From Bdellovibrio bacteriovorus (GTDB taxonomy: Bacteria > Bdellovibrionota > Bdellovibrionia > Bdellovibrionales > Bdellovibrionaceae), in assembly GCF_001592745.1 (NCBI RefSeq), contig NZ_LUKD01000001.1:1061384-1125383 (forward strand): DNA of 64,000 nt, written 5' to 3'. Every line of letters starts with the position of its first letter. Position 1 is the stretch's first letter. Below are positions 33,319 to 38,892 of the stretch, one piece after another. The translations under genes were made by a program, and so were the position numbers. Below the pieces are notes generated by a model. The model saw nothing but the letters and a program-made list of their open reading frames with translations. It was not told where the DNA came from and made no database searches.

Positions 33319-34053
33319 CTATCGAGAACCCGCATTGCGGTTGAACAAAATGATGTAATCTTTCGCACCCGTTTGTTCCATCATTCCCGAAAATTTATTG
33401 TCTTCAAATTTCTTACGGTAGGTCTTGCGAGCGATGTTTTGAATCATGCACCCCAATGGACCTGTACCCGATAAATCTTTACCTTCTTCGATCACGCATT
33501 TGGGTTCGAAGGACTCTTCTTGCTGACGAGTCACCGGAAACTTCGTGACAGAAAAACTGACTACATCGAGCTTGTACTCTTCTTTCAAACGATTGGCAGG
33601 ATTTTTCTTTAATAGTTGCGAAGAATAAATGTTAGGCACGATGGCTGCCACCCGCAAACCCTGCTCTCGAGCCTTCTTTACGCCGTCCACGAAGCGATCC
33701 ATTTCGTTTTTGATATCCACGCGCATGTTGGAATTAAAAAGCTCCACATAAGGCAACATGGGCTCCACCACGATCACGTCATATTTGGATCCGGCCTCTT
33801 GATTGGCTTCAAAGAATCCGCGCAGAAGCTCCATGTCTTCGATTTGGTTAGGAGTGACACCGAACAAAACAACCGGCGCTTCTTTGACCTCTAAGCGAAG
33901 ACGTTCGTAGACACCCTTTCCCAACTCTTCCGGAGTCGTGACTTGAGAAAATTTGATCTTGGGAATGCTTTGCGGCTGAATAGAGAAATTCATCGCAAAA
34001 TAAATACCCAAAGCGATCACGGCGGTAGCACAAGCCCAATAAATGTATTTCAT
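33319..34053 (-). CDS. Membrane-anchored protein, unknown function
   Basis: 244 aa, not recognised. An N-terminal membrane segment (about 3-24) anchors a soluble, probably periplasmic domain. The middle part alternates strands and helices (KEAPVVLFGVTPNQIEDMELLRGFF, YDVIVVEPMLPYVELF, EQGLRVAAIVPNIYS), which suggests an alpha/beta fold. Two cysteines (about 189 and 204) lie in KCVIEEGKD and LGCMIQN. It is the first gene of a minus-strand group with the secreted protein and SDR genes. Confidence 0.62.
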   Translation of the reverse strand: MKYIYWACATAVIALGIYFAMNFSIQPQSIPKIKFSQVTTPEELGKGVYERLRLEVKEAPVVLFGVTPNQIEDMELLRGFFEANQEAGSKYDVIVVEPMLPYVELFNSNMRVDIKNEMDRFVDGVKKAREQGLRVAAIVPNIYSSQLLKKNPANRLKEEYKLDVVSFSVTKFPVTRQQEESFEPKCVIEEGKDLSGTGPLGCMIQNIARKTYRKKFEDNKFSGMMEQTGAKDYIILFNRNAGSR

Positions 34054-34122
34054 GGGGCCGAAGGTCGCGCAGAATATGAGCGAAGTCTAGTTACGGCGCT
34101 ACGCACGCCATTCGTCGCAGCG

Positions 34123-34151
34123 TGGCAATCCTCATTGTAATCTGTTAGAAT
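34123..34151 (+). promoter_or_regulatory. Candidate extended -10 promoter of the CoA operon
   Basis: TGTTAGAAT at 34143-34151 is an extended -10 match (TGnTAnnnT); the -35 region at the 17-bp distance (TGGCAA, 34123-34128) is weak. It is 58 bp before the first gene of the operon. Confidence 0.35.
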
Positions 34152-34208: not shown

Positions 34209-34931
34209 ATGAAGGCGACGAATACAAATTCTTCTTTTTCTTATTTAATTATTGGCTCTGGCCGCGTCGCCCGACACTTGGGCTATTATTTTCACTTACT
34301 CAATCAACATTTTGAAACTTGGGATCGCTCGCAAGACCCCCACGCGCTAGCAAGAAAAGTCGCGAAATCTTCTCACGTCTTGCTCGCGATAAGTGATTCG
34401 GCGCTCTTAGGATTTTACCGTCAACATCTAGCCGGTCATGATAAAGTCTTCGTGCACTTTTCAGGCGCTCATCATTTTGAAGATATGATCGCGGCGCACC
34501 CGTTGATGACTTTTGGTCCCGAGCTTTATGATCTTTCGTTTTATCAAAAGATTCATTTCACGATAACCGGAGCTCGGTCCCTCCAAGAAGCCATTCCGGT
34601 ATTCACGAATCCTTTTTCTGTTCTGCCTCCCGAAGCAAAGGCACGTTATCACGCTTACTGCGTTTTAGGTGGTAACTTCGTCACTCTACTTGTGAACAAA
34701 ATGTTGCAGGGATTTTCCGAGATGAATATTCCAGCTGAGGCGGCTCACCTCTACATCGAAAAAATTCTGGCAAATACTTTTCAAAATCCAACACAGGCTT
34801 TGACCGGCCCCTTAGTGCGCAAGGATGCCGAAACCGTCCACGCGAATTTACAAGCGCTTTCCCAAGACTTGTATCTTCCTGTGTACGAAGCCTTTTTAAA
34901 AACCCACTGGCCCGATTACCCGCAAAAGTGA
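34209..34931 (+). CDS. Rossmann/DUF2520 protein, likely PanG-type ketopantoate reductase
   Basis: 240 aa. The N-terminal Rossmann dinucleotide-binding motif is IIGSGRVARHLGYYF (about 14-28), followed by SSHVLLAISDSAL and FVHFSGAHHFEDMIAAHPLMTFG, the DUF2520 pattern. The C-terminal half (about 140-240) is helical (GFSEMNIPAEAAHLYIEKILANT). It is the first gene of an operon with panB 7 bp downstream, then panC, coaBC, coaX and panD. The only pathway step missing from that set is ketopantoate reduction, so this gene is a strong candidate for the PanG-type reductase first described in Francisella. The sequence shows the fold and context; the reaction is inferred. Confidence 0.72.
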   Translation: MKATNTNSSFSYLIIGSGRVARHLGYYFHLLNQHFETWDRSQDPHALARKVAKSSHVLLAISDSALLGFYRQHLAGHDKVFVHFSGAHHFEDMIAAHPLMTFGPELYDLSFYQKIHFTITGARSLQEAIPVFTNPFSVLPPEAKARYHAYCVLGGNFVTLLVNKMLQGFSEMNIPAEAAHLYIEKILANTFQNPTQALTGPLVRKDAETVHANLQALSQDLYLPVYEAFLKTHWPDYPQK

Positions 34932-34938
34932 GGCTGCT

Positions 34939-35730
34939 ATGAAAACCATTTTAGATTTTCAGAATAAGAAAGCAAAAAAAGAAAAGATATCCATGGTCAC
35001 TTGTTATGACTACACTTTCGCACGCATCCTAGCAGAAAGCGATGTGGACTGCCTATTAGTGGGTGACTCTTTGGCTATGACAATGCACGGGCATAAAACA
35101 ACCTTGAATGCCTCTGTGAATATGATGGCTTTACATACTGCCGCCGTCGTGCGCGGAGCCGGAGACAAGTTTGTTGTAGGTGATTTACCGTTCATGAGTT
35201 ACCGCAAAGGCCTGACTGCTAACATGACATACGTAGAAAAGATCATGAAAGCCGGTGCTCACGCGGTAAAACTTGAAGGTGCTTCCGGAAATATTGAGCT
35301 CGTAAGACACCTTGTCGATTCGGGCGTACCAGTGATGGGACATTTAGGATTAACCCCGCAGTCAGTAAATCAGCTGGGTGGTTTTAAAGTTCAAGGTCGT
35401 GATGAAAAGGCTCAGAAAAAAATTAAAGAGCACGCCTTGCAACTTCAGGAAGCCGGCGCTTTTTCCATCGTACTTGAATGTGTTCCTTCAAATCTTGCCA
35501 AAGAAATCACGGCATCACTTGAGATTCCGACTATTGGTATTGGCGGAGGCCCAGATTGTGACGGCCAGGTTCTGGTTCTGCAGGACATGTTAGGAATGAC
35601 TCCGGGTTTTAAACCTAAATTTCTAAAACAATACTTCAATGGTTTTGAAACAATGAAAGAGGCCTTCAACACTTACCATCAAGAAGTCGTTCAAGGAAAA
35701 TTTCCAACCGAGAAAGAGAGTTATTCATGA
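34939..35730 (+). CDS. panB: 3-methyl-2-oxobutanoate hydroxymethyltransferase
   Basis: 263 aa; adds hydroxymethyl from methylene-THF to 2-oxoisovalerate, giving ketopantoate. Conserved blocks: MVTCYDYTFARILAESDVDCLLVGDSLAMTMHGHKTT (metal and substrate site), FVVGDLPFMSY, AVKLEGA, PVMGHLGLTPQSVNQLGGFKVQG, ECVPSNLAKEIT and the IGIGGGPDCDGQVLVLQDMLGM end. Length is standard. The stop overlaps the panC start (ATGA), so the two are coupled. Confidence 0.96.
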   Translation: MKTILDFQNKKAKKEKISMVTCYDYTFARILAESDVDCLLVGDSLAMTMHGHKTTLNASVNMMALHTAAVVRGAGDKFVVGDLPFMSYRKGLTANMTYVEKIMKAGAHAVKLEGASGNIELVRHLVDSGVPVMGHLGLTPQSVNQLGGFKVQGRDEKAQKKIKEHALQLQEAGAFSIVLECVPSNLAKEITASLEIPTIGIGGGPDCDGQVLVLQDMLGMTPGFKPKFLKQYFNGFETMKEAFNTYHQEVVQGKFPTEKESYS

Positions 35731-36482
35731 GCGAAGTTCTGCACTCTCCTTCAGAAATGAAAGCTTGGCGAAAAAACAAGGTGGGAACGATCGGCTTTGT
35801 CCCGACGATGGGAGCTTTGCATGCGGGCCATGAAGAGTTGATCAAACGTGCTCGCAAAGAAAACGACTTGGTCGTCCTTTCCATTTTTGTAAACCCTACG
35901 CAGTTCAACGACCCGAAGGATCTGGCGAAGTATCCAAAAACCTGGGAGCAAGATTTTGCAATGGCCGAGATGAATGGCGTCGACGCGGTCTTTTTCCCCA
36001 ACTATGAGGAAATGTATCCGGATAAGTACCGCTACAAGGTTTCAGAGAACGACTATTCTTTACTTTTAGACGGCGCCCATCGGCCGGGTCACTTCGACGG
36101 AGTTTTGTCAGTTGTGATGAAGCTTTTTAATCTGGTAAGTCCAAGCAAGGCTTACTTCGGTGAAAAAGACTTCCAACAGCTGTCCTTGATTCGCGGAATG
36201 GTGGATGCCTTTTTTATGAATCTGGAGATAGTCCCCGTCGCGACAGTGCGTGAGCAAGACGGTCTTGCCATGAGCTCCCGCAACACTCGATTGACGGCTG
36301 AAGAAAGAAGAATCGCACCGGCCATATACAAAGCTATAACTGAAAGCAAAAGTGCTGAAGAGGCTACGGCAAAACTTCAAGCTCAGGGTTTTGCCGTTGA
36401 TTACGTCACTGACGTGGGGTCACGCCGCTTTGTCGCGGCGAAATTGGGCGAAGTGAGGTTGATAGACAATGTCGAAATCTAA
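35727..36482 (+). CDS. panC: Pantothenate synthetase (pantoate-beta-alanine ligase)
   Basis: 251 aa; joins pantoate to beta-alanine with ATP. Family marks: GFVPTMGALHAGHEELIKRAR (the HxGH nucleotide site), VVLSIFVNPTQFNDPKDLAKYP, DGAHRPGHFDGVLSVVMKLFNLV, AYFGEKDFQQL, and REQDGLAMSSRNTRLTAEER. It is slightly shorter than the usual 280 aa, mostly through a reduced C-terminal domain. Translated from an ATGA overlap with panB; its 3' end overlaps coaBC by 14 bp. Confidence 0.96.
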   Translation: MSEVLHSPSEMKAWRKNKVGTIGFVPTMGALHAGHEELIKRARKENDLVVLSIFVNPTQFNDPKDLAKYPKTWEQDFAMAEMNGVDAVFFPNYEEMYPDKYRYKVSENDYSLLLDGAHRPGHFDGVLSVVMKLFNLVSPSKAYFGEKDFQQLSLIRGMVDAFFMNLEIVPVATVREQDGLAMSSRNTRLTAEERRIAPAIYKAITESKSAEEATAKLQAQGFAVDYVTDVGSRRFVAAKLGEVRLIDNVEI

Positions 36483-37734
36483 AGTCCTTTTTATTATGAC
36501 AGGCTCGATTGCCTGTTACAAAGCCTGCCACGTAGTTTCTAGGCTGGTTCAAGCAAACTGCGAAGTGCAGGTTGTAGCGACTCCTTCGGCATTAAAATTC
36601 GTTGGCAATGCGACACTTGAAGGCTTGACTGGAAAACCTGTCGTGAGCGACATGTATGCCGCTGGCAATGTCATGGACCATATTCATCTTATGAGATGGG
36701 CCGACGTTGTTTTAGTAGCTCCAGCGACGGCCAGCTTTATCAATAAAGCCGCTCAGGGCGTAGGCGATGATTTAGTGCAAACTCTTTTCCTCGCTCATGA
36801 CTTTAAGAAGCCTTTCCTTATTGCTCCGGCAATGAACACGAGCATGTATAAGCACCCGGTGACGCAAAAGTCTTTGCAAACCCTACGCGACATGGGACTA
36901 CAGATTCTAGAAACTGCTTCAGGCATACTGGCTTGCGGCGAAGAAGGCTGGGGAAAACTTCTTGAACCTGATCTGATATTAAAATTCACGCTGGAAGCGC
37001 TTCAGAACAAAGGAGCCGCCGTTCCTTCAGAAGCGATCAGCTTTAAAACCGCCAGCAAAGTCAAAGTGTTGGTTACGGCAGGCGGAACACAAGAGCCTAT
37101 CGACACTGTACGCGTTATCAGCAACCTAAGCTCGGGCAAAACAGGTGTGACAATCGCCGAAAGCCTTACGCAAATGGGTTTTGACGTAACATTGTTGCAA
37201 GCTCATGGATCTGCAAAAGCCGAACACGTGACTCGACAGGATTTCTTCACGAGCTTTGCTAGCCTTGATGAAAAGATGAAAAACTATCTTTCCAGCGAAG
37301 AATTCACGCATGTGATTCATGCAGCGGCAGTCAGCGACTACTCCGTCGATAGCATTGAAGTCAATGGCGTCAAACATCGTCCTTTCGAAGTAAAAAAGGT
37401 CAGTTCGGATGCCGACCACTTGAACATTCATTTGAAACGCAATCATAAGATTGTCGATCGTTTGAAAGACTATTCAAAAAATAAAAGCCTTCAAGTCATC
37501 GCGTTTAAACTGACCAGCCATGCTTCGACCGAAGAAAAGCAAAAAGCCGTAAACAAGTTGTTTCAGGGTTCTCACGCGGACTTCGTCGTTCATAACGACA
37601 TGACCGATATCGATATTGTTAACAAAACACATAAGTTCACTTTGCACTCGCCATCGGGCGCAGTGGCTTGCGAAAGCTTAGAAAGACTTTCCAGTGAATT
37701 GATCCACGCGCTAATGCCTAAGGATACTTTATGA
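36469..37734 (+). CDS. coaBC: Bifunctional phosphopantothenoylcysteine decarboxylase/synthetase
   Basis: 421 aa. The N-terminal CoaC flavoprotein domain (about 1-180) has [27 protein letters not shown] and the [11 protein letters not shown] motif, and [18 protein letters not shown] with the active Cys. The C-terminal CoaB domain (about 195-421) has [25 protein letters not shown] and [10 protein letters not shown]; the later VAFKL-type and NDMTDIDI segments fit. Together they turn 4'-phosphopantothenate plus Cys into 4'-phosphopantetheine. It overlaps panC and the coaX start (ATGA). Confidence 0.95.
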
Positions 37735-38501
37735 TTTTATGTCTTGATGTGGGAAACACTCAAATCTATGCCGGTCTTTTTGATAAAGACAAAATGGTTC
37801 TTTCGTTCCGTAAGAACTCCAAAAGCGGAGCTTCTTCTGATGAGACCGGAATCTTTTTAAGAAGCGCTATTCGTGAGAATGGCTATGATCCATCTAAGAT
37901 CAAGCAAATCGCTATCTGCAGTGTCGTTCCCGAGGTGATTTATTCTCTTCGTGGAGCTTGCATGAAGTATTTCAATATCAATCCATTCATCCTCCAAGCA
38001 GGCGTCAAAACAGGATTGAAAGTAAAGTACCGCAATCCACTTGAGGTCGGCGCCGACCGCATTGCCAATACAATTGCGGCGACTCACCTTTACCCCGGGA
38101 AAAACCTGATTATCGTCGATTTGGGCACGGCAACCACATTCTGTGCCGTCACGAAAGAAAAAGACTACTTGGGGGGATCTATCGTGGCGGGTCTTCGCCT
38201 TTGTATGGAAGCTTTGGAAAGTAAAACGGCGAAACTTCCTTCAGTTGAAATCGTTTCTATGCACGAAGCCTTAGGCCGCTCGACGGTGGAAAGCATTCAA
38301 TCTGGACTTTTTTACGGCCACTTAGGAACGATCCGGGAATTAAGTGATAGAATCACGAAGGAATGTTTCCAAGGAGAAAAACCGCTCGTTATTGGAACTG
38401 GTGGCTTTGCCTACCTGTTTGAAAAAGAAAAAATCTTTGATGAGATCGTGCCGGATTTAGTTCTAAAAGGCATGCTAATCGCTTTGCAATACAATACGTA
38501 A
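37731..38501 (+). CDS. coaX: Type III pantothenate kinase
   Basis: 256 aa; phosphorylates pantothenate, the first committed CoA step. Family marks are the P-loop-like [13 protein letters not shown] at the start, the CSVVPEV block, [23 protein letters not shown], the [14 protein letters not shown] phosphate/metal motif and [14 protein letters not shown]. Type III kinases are not feedback-inhibited by CoA. Its start overlaps the coaBC stop. No CoaA or CoaD is seen in this window. Confidence 0.96.
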
Positions 38502-38517
38502 GGATTTAGGAATCACT

Positions 38518-38892
38518 ATGAATTTATCAATGTTAAGAGCAAAAATTCACCGCGCCACCGTTACGGGAGCTGACCTTGATTATGAAGGTTCCGTCAGCGT
38601 CTGTCCGGATTTGATCAAAGCTTCTGGTTTATTAATTAACGAGCGCGTAGATATTTACAATTGTAATAACGGGGCCCGCTTTTCCACTTACGTGATCAAA
38701 GGAAAAAAAGGCGAAATCTGTCTTAACGGAGCTGCCGCTCGCCACGTTCAACGCGGAGACCTGGTGATCATCTGCGCTTACTGCGGACTGAATATGGACG
38801 AAGCTAAAAAACACGAACCTGCTGTGGTTTTCGTAGACGCTAAAAATCGCGTCAAAGAGAAGCGCAAAGAAGACAGAAAAAATAATAAATAA
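38518..38892 (+). CDS. panD: Aspartate 1-decarboxylase proenzyme
   Basis: 124 aa; makes beta-alanine for panC. The self-cleavage site is DYEGSVSV, with Gly24-Ser25 in the exact classical position (the Ser becomes the pyruvoyl group), and K9 is in MLRAKIHRATVTGADLDY. NGARFSTYVIKGKKGEICLNGAAARHVQRGDLVIICAY matches the family body. It is the last gene of the CoA operon, closed by a terminator. Confidence 0.96.
   Translation: MNLSMLRAKIHRATVTGADLDYEGSVSVCPDLIKASGLLINERVDIYNCNNGARFSTYVIKGKKGEICLNGAAARHVQRGDLVIICAYCGLNMDEAKKHEPAVVFVDAKNRVKEKRKEDRKNNK

Follow-up and report, generated by a model that had tools for sequence, protein, structure and literature searches.

The window analysed here, a 64,000-nucleotide stretch of Bdellovibrio bacteriovorus DNA, carries a run of genes for pantothenate and coenzyme A synthesis and raises the question of which enzyme reduces ketopantoate in this organism. 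In Francisella, PanG reportedly substitutes for PanE and IlvC, and EF1861 of E. faecalis is said, in the same original PanG study, to work as well. The original prediction for the window held that the first gene of the operon, which encodes a DUF2520 protein, might be another PanG in a different phylum. Our analysis indicates that the product of this gene would serve the cell as its ketopantoate reductase, an enzyme of PanG (DUF2520) type, a reading to which we assign a probability of about 0.92 and in which the activity is predicted from sequence.

ORF calling recovered the putative reductase gene exactly at 34209-34931 on the forward strand (240 aa). It is followed, on the same strand, by panB (ketopantoate hydroxymethyltransferase, 34939-35730; TIGR00222, 334.9 bits), panC (pantoate--beta-alanine ligase, 35727-36482; TIGR00018, 277.3 bits), coaBC (bifunctional phosphopantothenoylcysteine synthetase/decarboxylase, 36469-37734; TIGR00521, 274 bits), coaX (type III pantothenate kinase, 37731-38501; NF009855, 334.8 bits) and panD (aspartate 1-decarboxylase, 38518-38892; TIGR00223, 155.9 bits), these five names denoting that the curated NCBIfam cut-offs were exceeded. 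All six ORFs are intact. The genes had been described as all present and overlapping; their presence was upheld, as was overlap at three junctions (panB/panC, 4 nt; panC/coaBC, 14 nt; coaBC/coaX, 4 nt), but the DUF2520 gene is separated from panB by 7 nt and coaX from panD by 16 nt. The claim that no ordinary PanE lies within the operon was confirmed. The nearest ORF upstream of the DUF2520 gene (33319-34053) is on the opposite strand and without a Pfam match, and a promoter-like site at 34122-34151, upstream of the operon, was discarded as being at chance level (8 found versus 5.9 expected). The PanC of the window is short, at 251 aa; TIGR00018 was matched at positions 3-221 of 283 and the Pfam model through to its end, and part of the C-terminal region seems to be reduced.

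The product of the first gene matched DUF2520 (PF10728) at 6e-16 (58.8 bits; cut-off 25). Neither the two PanE domains (PF02558, PF08546) nor KARI_N and KARI_C were reported for it by Pfam at E-values up to 10, and zero NCBIfam models matched at E-values up to 1. Its Rossmann half drew no Pfam call; a family profile, A1, built from 41 DUF2520 proteins, matched the structures 3d1l (7.9e-24, profile positions 7-238 of 244) and 2i76 (5.6e-21, positions 46-239 of 244). These matches and the presence of a GxG motif point to a fold made up of a Rossmann and a helical part, in agreement with the earlier description of a Rossmann DUF2520 protein; a single-protein structure prediction (pLDDT 42) was too poor for use. 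A residue alignment of 53 Bdellovibrionota rows (51 proteins besides the window protein and its locus copy) contained S85, H97, F102, Y147, H148, G200, P201 and R204 in every row, G16 and G18 in all except one incomplete row, and N156 and D206 in 50 rows each. Most of these conserved residues are common to other DUF2520 proteins and therefore mark the family, not PanG alone.

Two 16S primer sites specific to Bdellovibrio match the 3.76-Mb genome to which the window belongs (rated 99.99% complete) exactly, in keeping with that genus. A search of this genome for panE and ilvC, the check proposed at the outset, returned no match to the PanE C-domain PF08546, with a profile search that detected 8 of 14 positive controls, and none to IlvC (PF01450), with one that detected 14 of 14; IlvD was likewise not found by profile search. 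The PanE N-domain PF02558 gave a single match, at 23.5 bits barely above its cut-off of 22.2. The protein concerned scored 191.5 bits against TIGR00112 (proC), slightly below the cut-off of 196.75, and since this sole match is ProC-like, a PanE hidden elsewhere in the genome was rejected. DUF2520 occurs once, upstream of panB. The DUF2520 protein would thus be the only ketopantoate reductase of this genome, although weak copies of others may escape such a search.

Evidence for kinship with PanG came from four Francisella genomes, picked by 16S pattern and searched for DUF2520, each of which yielded exactly one above-cut-off match. At three loci the order is DUF2520 (238-240 aa), panB, panC, with 4 nt shared by the first two genes; panB and panC were named by eye, and panB was also placed in the PanB tree. 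The fourth match, in a short open frame of 83 aa, was left out of comparisons. A DUF2520-containing oxidoreductase has been described with EF1861 and FTT1388 as its homologues, in a paper that cites the original PanG work (PMC4572677), and a panG homologue is described as completing the pantothenate pathway in Coxiella (PMC5449765). Based on the former statement and on the one match per genome in four of four, we assumed that Francisella PanG (FTT1388) is the single DUF2520 protein of Francisella.

The three Francisella proteins were 34-36% identical to the window protein; the F. philomiragia protein, itself a PF10728 member (8.7e-16), aligned with it by BLAST at 34.8% identity over 227 aa (1e-38), whereas among eight other DUF2520 proteins, taken from plasmid records, the best value was 1e-14. 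All three retain G16, G18, N156 and D206 plus every invariant residue. A Bdellovibrionota DUF2520 profile gave them 241-251 bits and the eight others 74-105. In a tree of 63 of 64 rows (L002, the same protein as that of the window, being omitted), 52 Bdellovibrionota and the 3 Francisella proteins split from the 8 others with support of 100/99; the bootstrap had not converged, and branching within the large group was mostly unresolved. By BLAST and tree, the window protein is therefore closer to the Francisella DUF2520 proteins than to the other DUF2520 proteins, FTT1388 and EF1861 themselves lying outside the comparison. Francisella panG and panB (L131, L132 and L133) were nested among Bdellovibrionota in both the DUF2520 and the PanB trees; an AU test of this nesting was borderline (p 0.0425; 51 of 64 rows under LG+G4, 13 copies and long branches left out, the group having been named after the first tree was seen). 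This suggests transfer of a panG-panB block between Francisella and Bdellovibrionota, Francisella being the only Gammaproteobacteria of the clade in the sample.

Five families (panB, DUF2520, IlvC, the PanE C-domain and IlvD) were then surveyed in the same 114 Bdellovibrionota genomes, at least 90% complete and drawn evenly across the phylum, 113 of them at no more than 5% contamination. panB was found in 101 genomes, DUF2520 in 50 and IlvC in 46, panB being present in all 50 and all 46; DUF2520 and IlvC occurred together in none of the 101 panB genomes, and DUF2520 in none of the 13 without panB. In 49 of its 50 genomes the DUF2520 domain immediately precedes panB (domain gap 12-113 nt), as it does in all 12 sampled genomes of the genus of the window. 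An IlvC-family gene held that position in 29 genomes (6-143 nt) and lay elsewhere in 17, and four families (f11, f12, f14 and f20) contain both operon kinds. The PanE C-domain was found in 6 of the 114 genomes: with panB and no other reductase in two (G024 and G034), beside IlvC in one (G029), beside DUF2520 in two (G074 and G113) and without panB in one (G065). IlvD was detected in 0 of 114 genomes by a profile search that recovered 14 of 14 positive controls. The homology and gene order shared with Francisella, the genome search that found neither PanE nor IlvC and the phylum-wide exclusion of DUF2520 and IlvC together support the prediction of a PanG-type enzyme in another phylum.

Three panB genomes (G031, G015 and G040) showed no DUF2520, IlvC or PanE C-domain in the initial search. 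On closer look, G031 proved to carry a diverged DUF2520 gene in the panB slot (L032), which had been overlooked by the genome search despite 33 bits against the Pfam cut-off of 25; the search can therefore also miss weak copies of other families. Two panB genomes without a known reductase remain, G015 (L034) and G040 (L033), each with panB and a panC named by eye, and with no PanE, IlvC or DUF2520 found. In G040 the slot is occupied by an HD-domain-like protein (below Pfam cut-offs), and in G015 by what by eye is an outer-membrane-like protein; in these genomes (94% complete for G040, 93% for G015) the reductase gene may be absent or of a different type.

How many independent events underlie the exclusion was judged from a PanB tree (88 rows, quick method, with neither the short L046 nor any panB from the 17 unlinked-IlvC genomes), in which only 3 changes between DUF2520 and IlvC types were counted. 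For the most part, DUF2520-panB and IlvC-panB are thus two lineages of whole blocks, each displacing the other, and because reductase and panB mostly move together, the exclusivity counts few independent events. The Fisher p-value for the exclusion (2e-23, ignoring kinship) was rejected as independent evidence, given the joint movement in the PanB tree. The survey pattern is consistent and functionally telling, though few independent events lie behind it. The best single case is G018 (L035 and L036), in which panB groups with the IlvC lineage and no reductase occupies the slot; its DUF2520 gene is solitary, 106 kb from panB with no adjoining pantothenate gene, and groups with its own family, f14, which shows a reductase swap at the level of the gene.

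The IlvC-type loci were examined in their own right. The 29 panB-linked IlvC-family loci are L039-L046, L048-L050 and L072-L089. Two panB-linked proteins scanned against the NCBI ilvC model scored 170.8 and 92.7, below the cut-off of 226.15, and one unlinked copy scored 290.7, above it; the panB-linked proteins look diverged. In a residue comparison covering all 29 panB-linked and 2 of the 17 unlinked proteins, K118, E173, D177, E181, E213, E217 and S238 (L091 numbering) were kept in 29/29 of the former, and most of these seven we take to be the metal and substrate residues of KARI. Stop codons fell inside 3 of the 46 IlvC matches (G002, G054 and G056), the G056 open frame (L045, 294 aa) stopping within the match. 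Since IlvD was found in none of the 114 genomes, the usual route to valine cannot be completed with the 46 IlvC genes, which for the same reason probably serve as ketopantoate reductases too, so that a dedicated IlvC-type ketopantoate reductase in Bdellovibrionota appears likely. Among the literature matches listed, no published enzyme of this kind was recognised by title, which does not prove absence; those listed for Bdellovibrio panE, Bacteriovorax ketol-acid reductoisomerase and Bdellovibrio pantothenic acid auxotrophy held, in titles and abstract openings, nothing relevant.

IlvC and the DUF2520 protein of the window belong to different families, weakly alike in the Rossmann part (hhalign, 88 columns). 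A first iterative profile had pulled DUF2520 and IlvC-family proteins together; the combined list was not treated as a family, and only its ORF names were used, split by locus. With the profile rebuilt from DUF2520 alone, only 5 IlvC-family proteins scored, and weakly (4e-6 to 2e-4). We consider it quite probable that, in a phylum without detected IlvD, PanG and a diverged IlvC, one that has left branched-chain synthesis and is now a dedicated ketopantoate reductase, alternate upstream of panB, with G018 as a swap at the gene level and the Francisella panG-panB block perhaps exchanged with Bdellovibrionota.

The alternative that survives best, at a small fraction of the probability, is that the DUF2520 protein reduces another 2-keto acid or an imine, while ketopantoate is handled by an unrecognised or promiscuous enzyme (for example a ProC-like one) or pantoate is obtained from prey. 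DUF2520 genes do occur in non-pantothenate settings: a plasmid collection held 13 DUF2520 matches, and 8 regions were examined, the proteins of the three unannotated ones being the longest open frames at the match, as chosen by script. In the five that are annotated, one locus (Thermomicrobium) adjoins panB and four (Legionella, Monoglobus, Caballeronia and Ruegeria) do not; the DUF2520 name alone therefore does not give function. On the Caballeronia plasmid, the gene (L138, 3842-4675) is clustered with those for a tartrate dehydrogenase, an aldehyde dehydrogenase and an alpha-hydroxy acid oxidase, which hints that the family also includes other 2-keto acid reductases. Enzymes of the superfamily are described as promiscuous, IlvC and ProC types among them, and other 2-keto acid dehydrogenases as misnamed ketopantoate reductases (PMC4353338), and another enzyme may act in the two panB genomes in which no known reductase was found. 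Weighing against this alternative, DUF2520 fills the panB slot in nearly every genome that has it, is missing from those lacking panB and never accompanies IlvC; furthermore, the same gene pair stands in the same order in Francisella, the source of the reported PanG.

Only slightly more improbable than this would be a role for the operon as a remnant in a pantothenate auxotroph, a possibility compatible with a sound enzyme in an idle pathway. The iCH457 model of B. bacteriovorus is described as counting pantothenate as one of up to 24 in silico auxotrophies, and as predicting a requirement for valine, the source of ketoisovalerate (PMC7529429). Against a remnant, all six ORFs are intact, and the DUF2520-panB pair is kept in 12/12 sampled genomes of the genus and panB in 101/114 of the phylum. 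That the protein is a regulator or scaffold retaining a Rossmann fold, outside pathway enzymology, is favoured by operon position and by a Pfam family of unknown function, and is scarcely credible given that eight residues are invariant in 53/53 rows and G16 and G18 nearly so, and that the same slot is filled in 29 genomes by IlvC-family genes keeping IlvC-conserved residues.

With the DUF2520 protein as ketopantoate reductase, the pathway would run as follows. The genome encodes a type II branched-chain aminotransferase (TIGR01123, 364.3 bits versus 250.05), so ketoisovalerate could come from valine; valine, probably taken from prey, would be converted by this enzyme, if so used, to 2-ketoisovalerate, which PanB would hydroxymethylate to ketopantoate. 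In the DUF2520 protein, the Rossmann half would bind NADPH, for which an arginine at position 40, past the second strand, would be suited, and hydride would pass to the 2-keto group of ketopantoate; in the helical half, the conserved YH(x7)N stretch would be the likeliest acid/base and substrate site. The use of NADPH, like catalysis by H148 and N156, is a prediction. PanC would join pantoate to beta-alanine supplied by PanD, and CoaX and CoaBC would take the product to 4'-phosphopantetheine.

On this assignment, the gene supplies a step that the pantothenate branch of this predatory bacterium would otherwise lack. Because a relative of PanG heads an operon in a genome where the usual reductases were not found, the predatory Bdellovibrio is probably able to make vitamin B5 itself, and the presence of a PanG-type gene means that the listed pantothenate auxotrophy of B. 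bacteriovorus (PMC7529429) merits re-testing. DUF2520, an uncharacterised domain, becomes tied to a defined step in a second phylum, membership alone not meaning PanG. PanG itself is an already known kind of enzyme; the wider value lies in its alternation with a probable dedicated IlvC-type counterpart and in the doubt cast on a listed auxotrophy. With IlvC in 46/114 genomes and IlvD found in none, these genomes provide a natural test of whether IlvC can be a dedicated ketopantoate reductase, and they caution that the presence of ilvC is not proof of valine synthesis.

Set beside known systems, the window protein shares its proposed reaction with PanE/ApbA, which has a Rossmann plus helical domain, and carries neither PanE domain. 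Of the solved DUF2520-type structures, 2I76 is entered as 'Hypothetical protein' and 3D1L as 'Putative NADP oxidoreductase BF3122', and the latter differs at aligned sites, with Tyr for H97, Leu for Y147 and Ala for S85. YkpB of B. subtilis has been named 'PanG' in a paper that places the ketopantoate reductases of B. subtilis in one cluster of orthologues (PMC11487621); this 'PanG' is taken to be of the PanE type, hence different from the window protein. Likeness to Francisella PanG extends to a DUF2520 protein of about 240 aa, the order DUF2520-panB-panC, identities of 34-36% (to three Francisella proteins, none of them FTT1388) and the retention of S85, H97, F102, Y147, H148, N156, G200, P201 and R204; the operon of the window differs in running on into coaBC, coaX and panD, the Francisella sequences examined ending within panC. 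For the IlvC type, precedents are described in Buchnera, whose ilvC complements a panE ilvC mutant of E. coli (PMC4306246), and in Corynebacterium glutamicum, whose ilvC stands in for panE (cited in PMC4306246 and PMC4353338), while IlvC homologues can use other substrates, such as pyrroline-5-carboxylate (PMC4353338). In both precedents IlvC also serves amino acid synthesis, and Buchnera has ilvD (PMC4306246), whereas IlvD was found in 0/114 Bdellovibrionota. The proposed step is nevertheless the same, and in 29/114 Bdellovibrionota an IlvC-family gene fills the slot upstream of panB.
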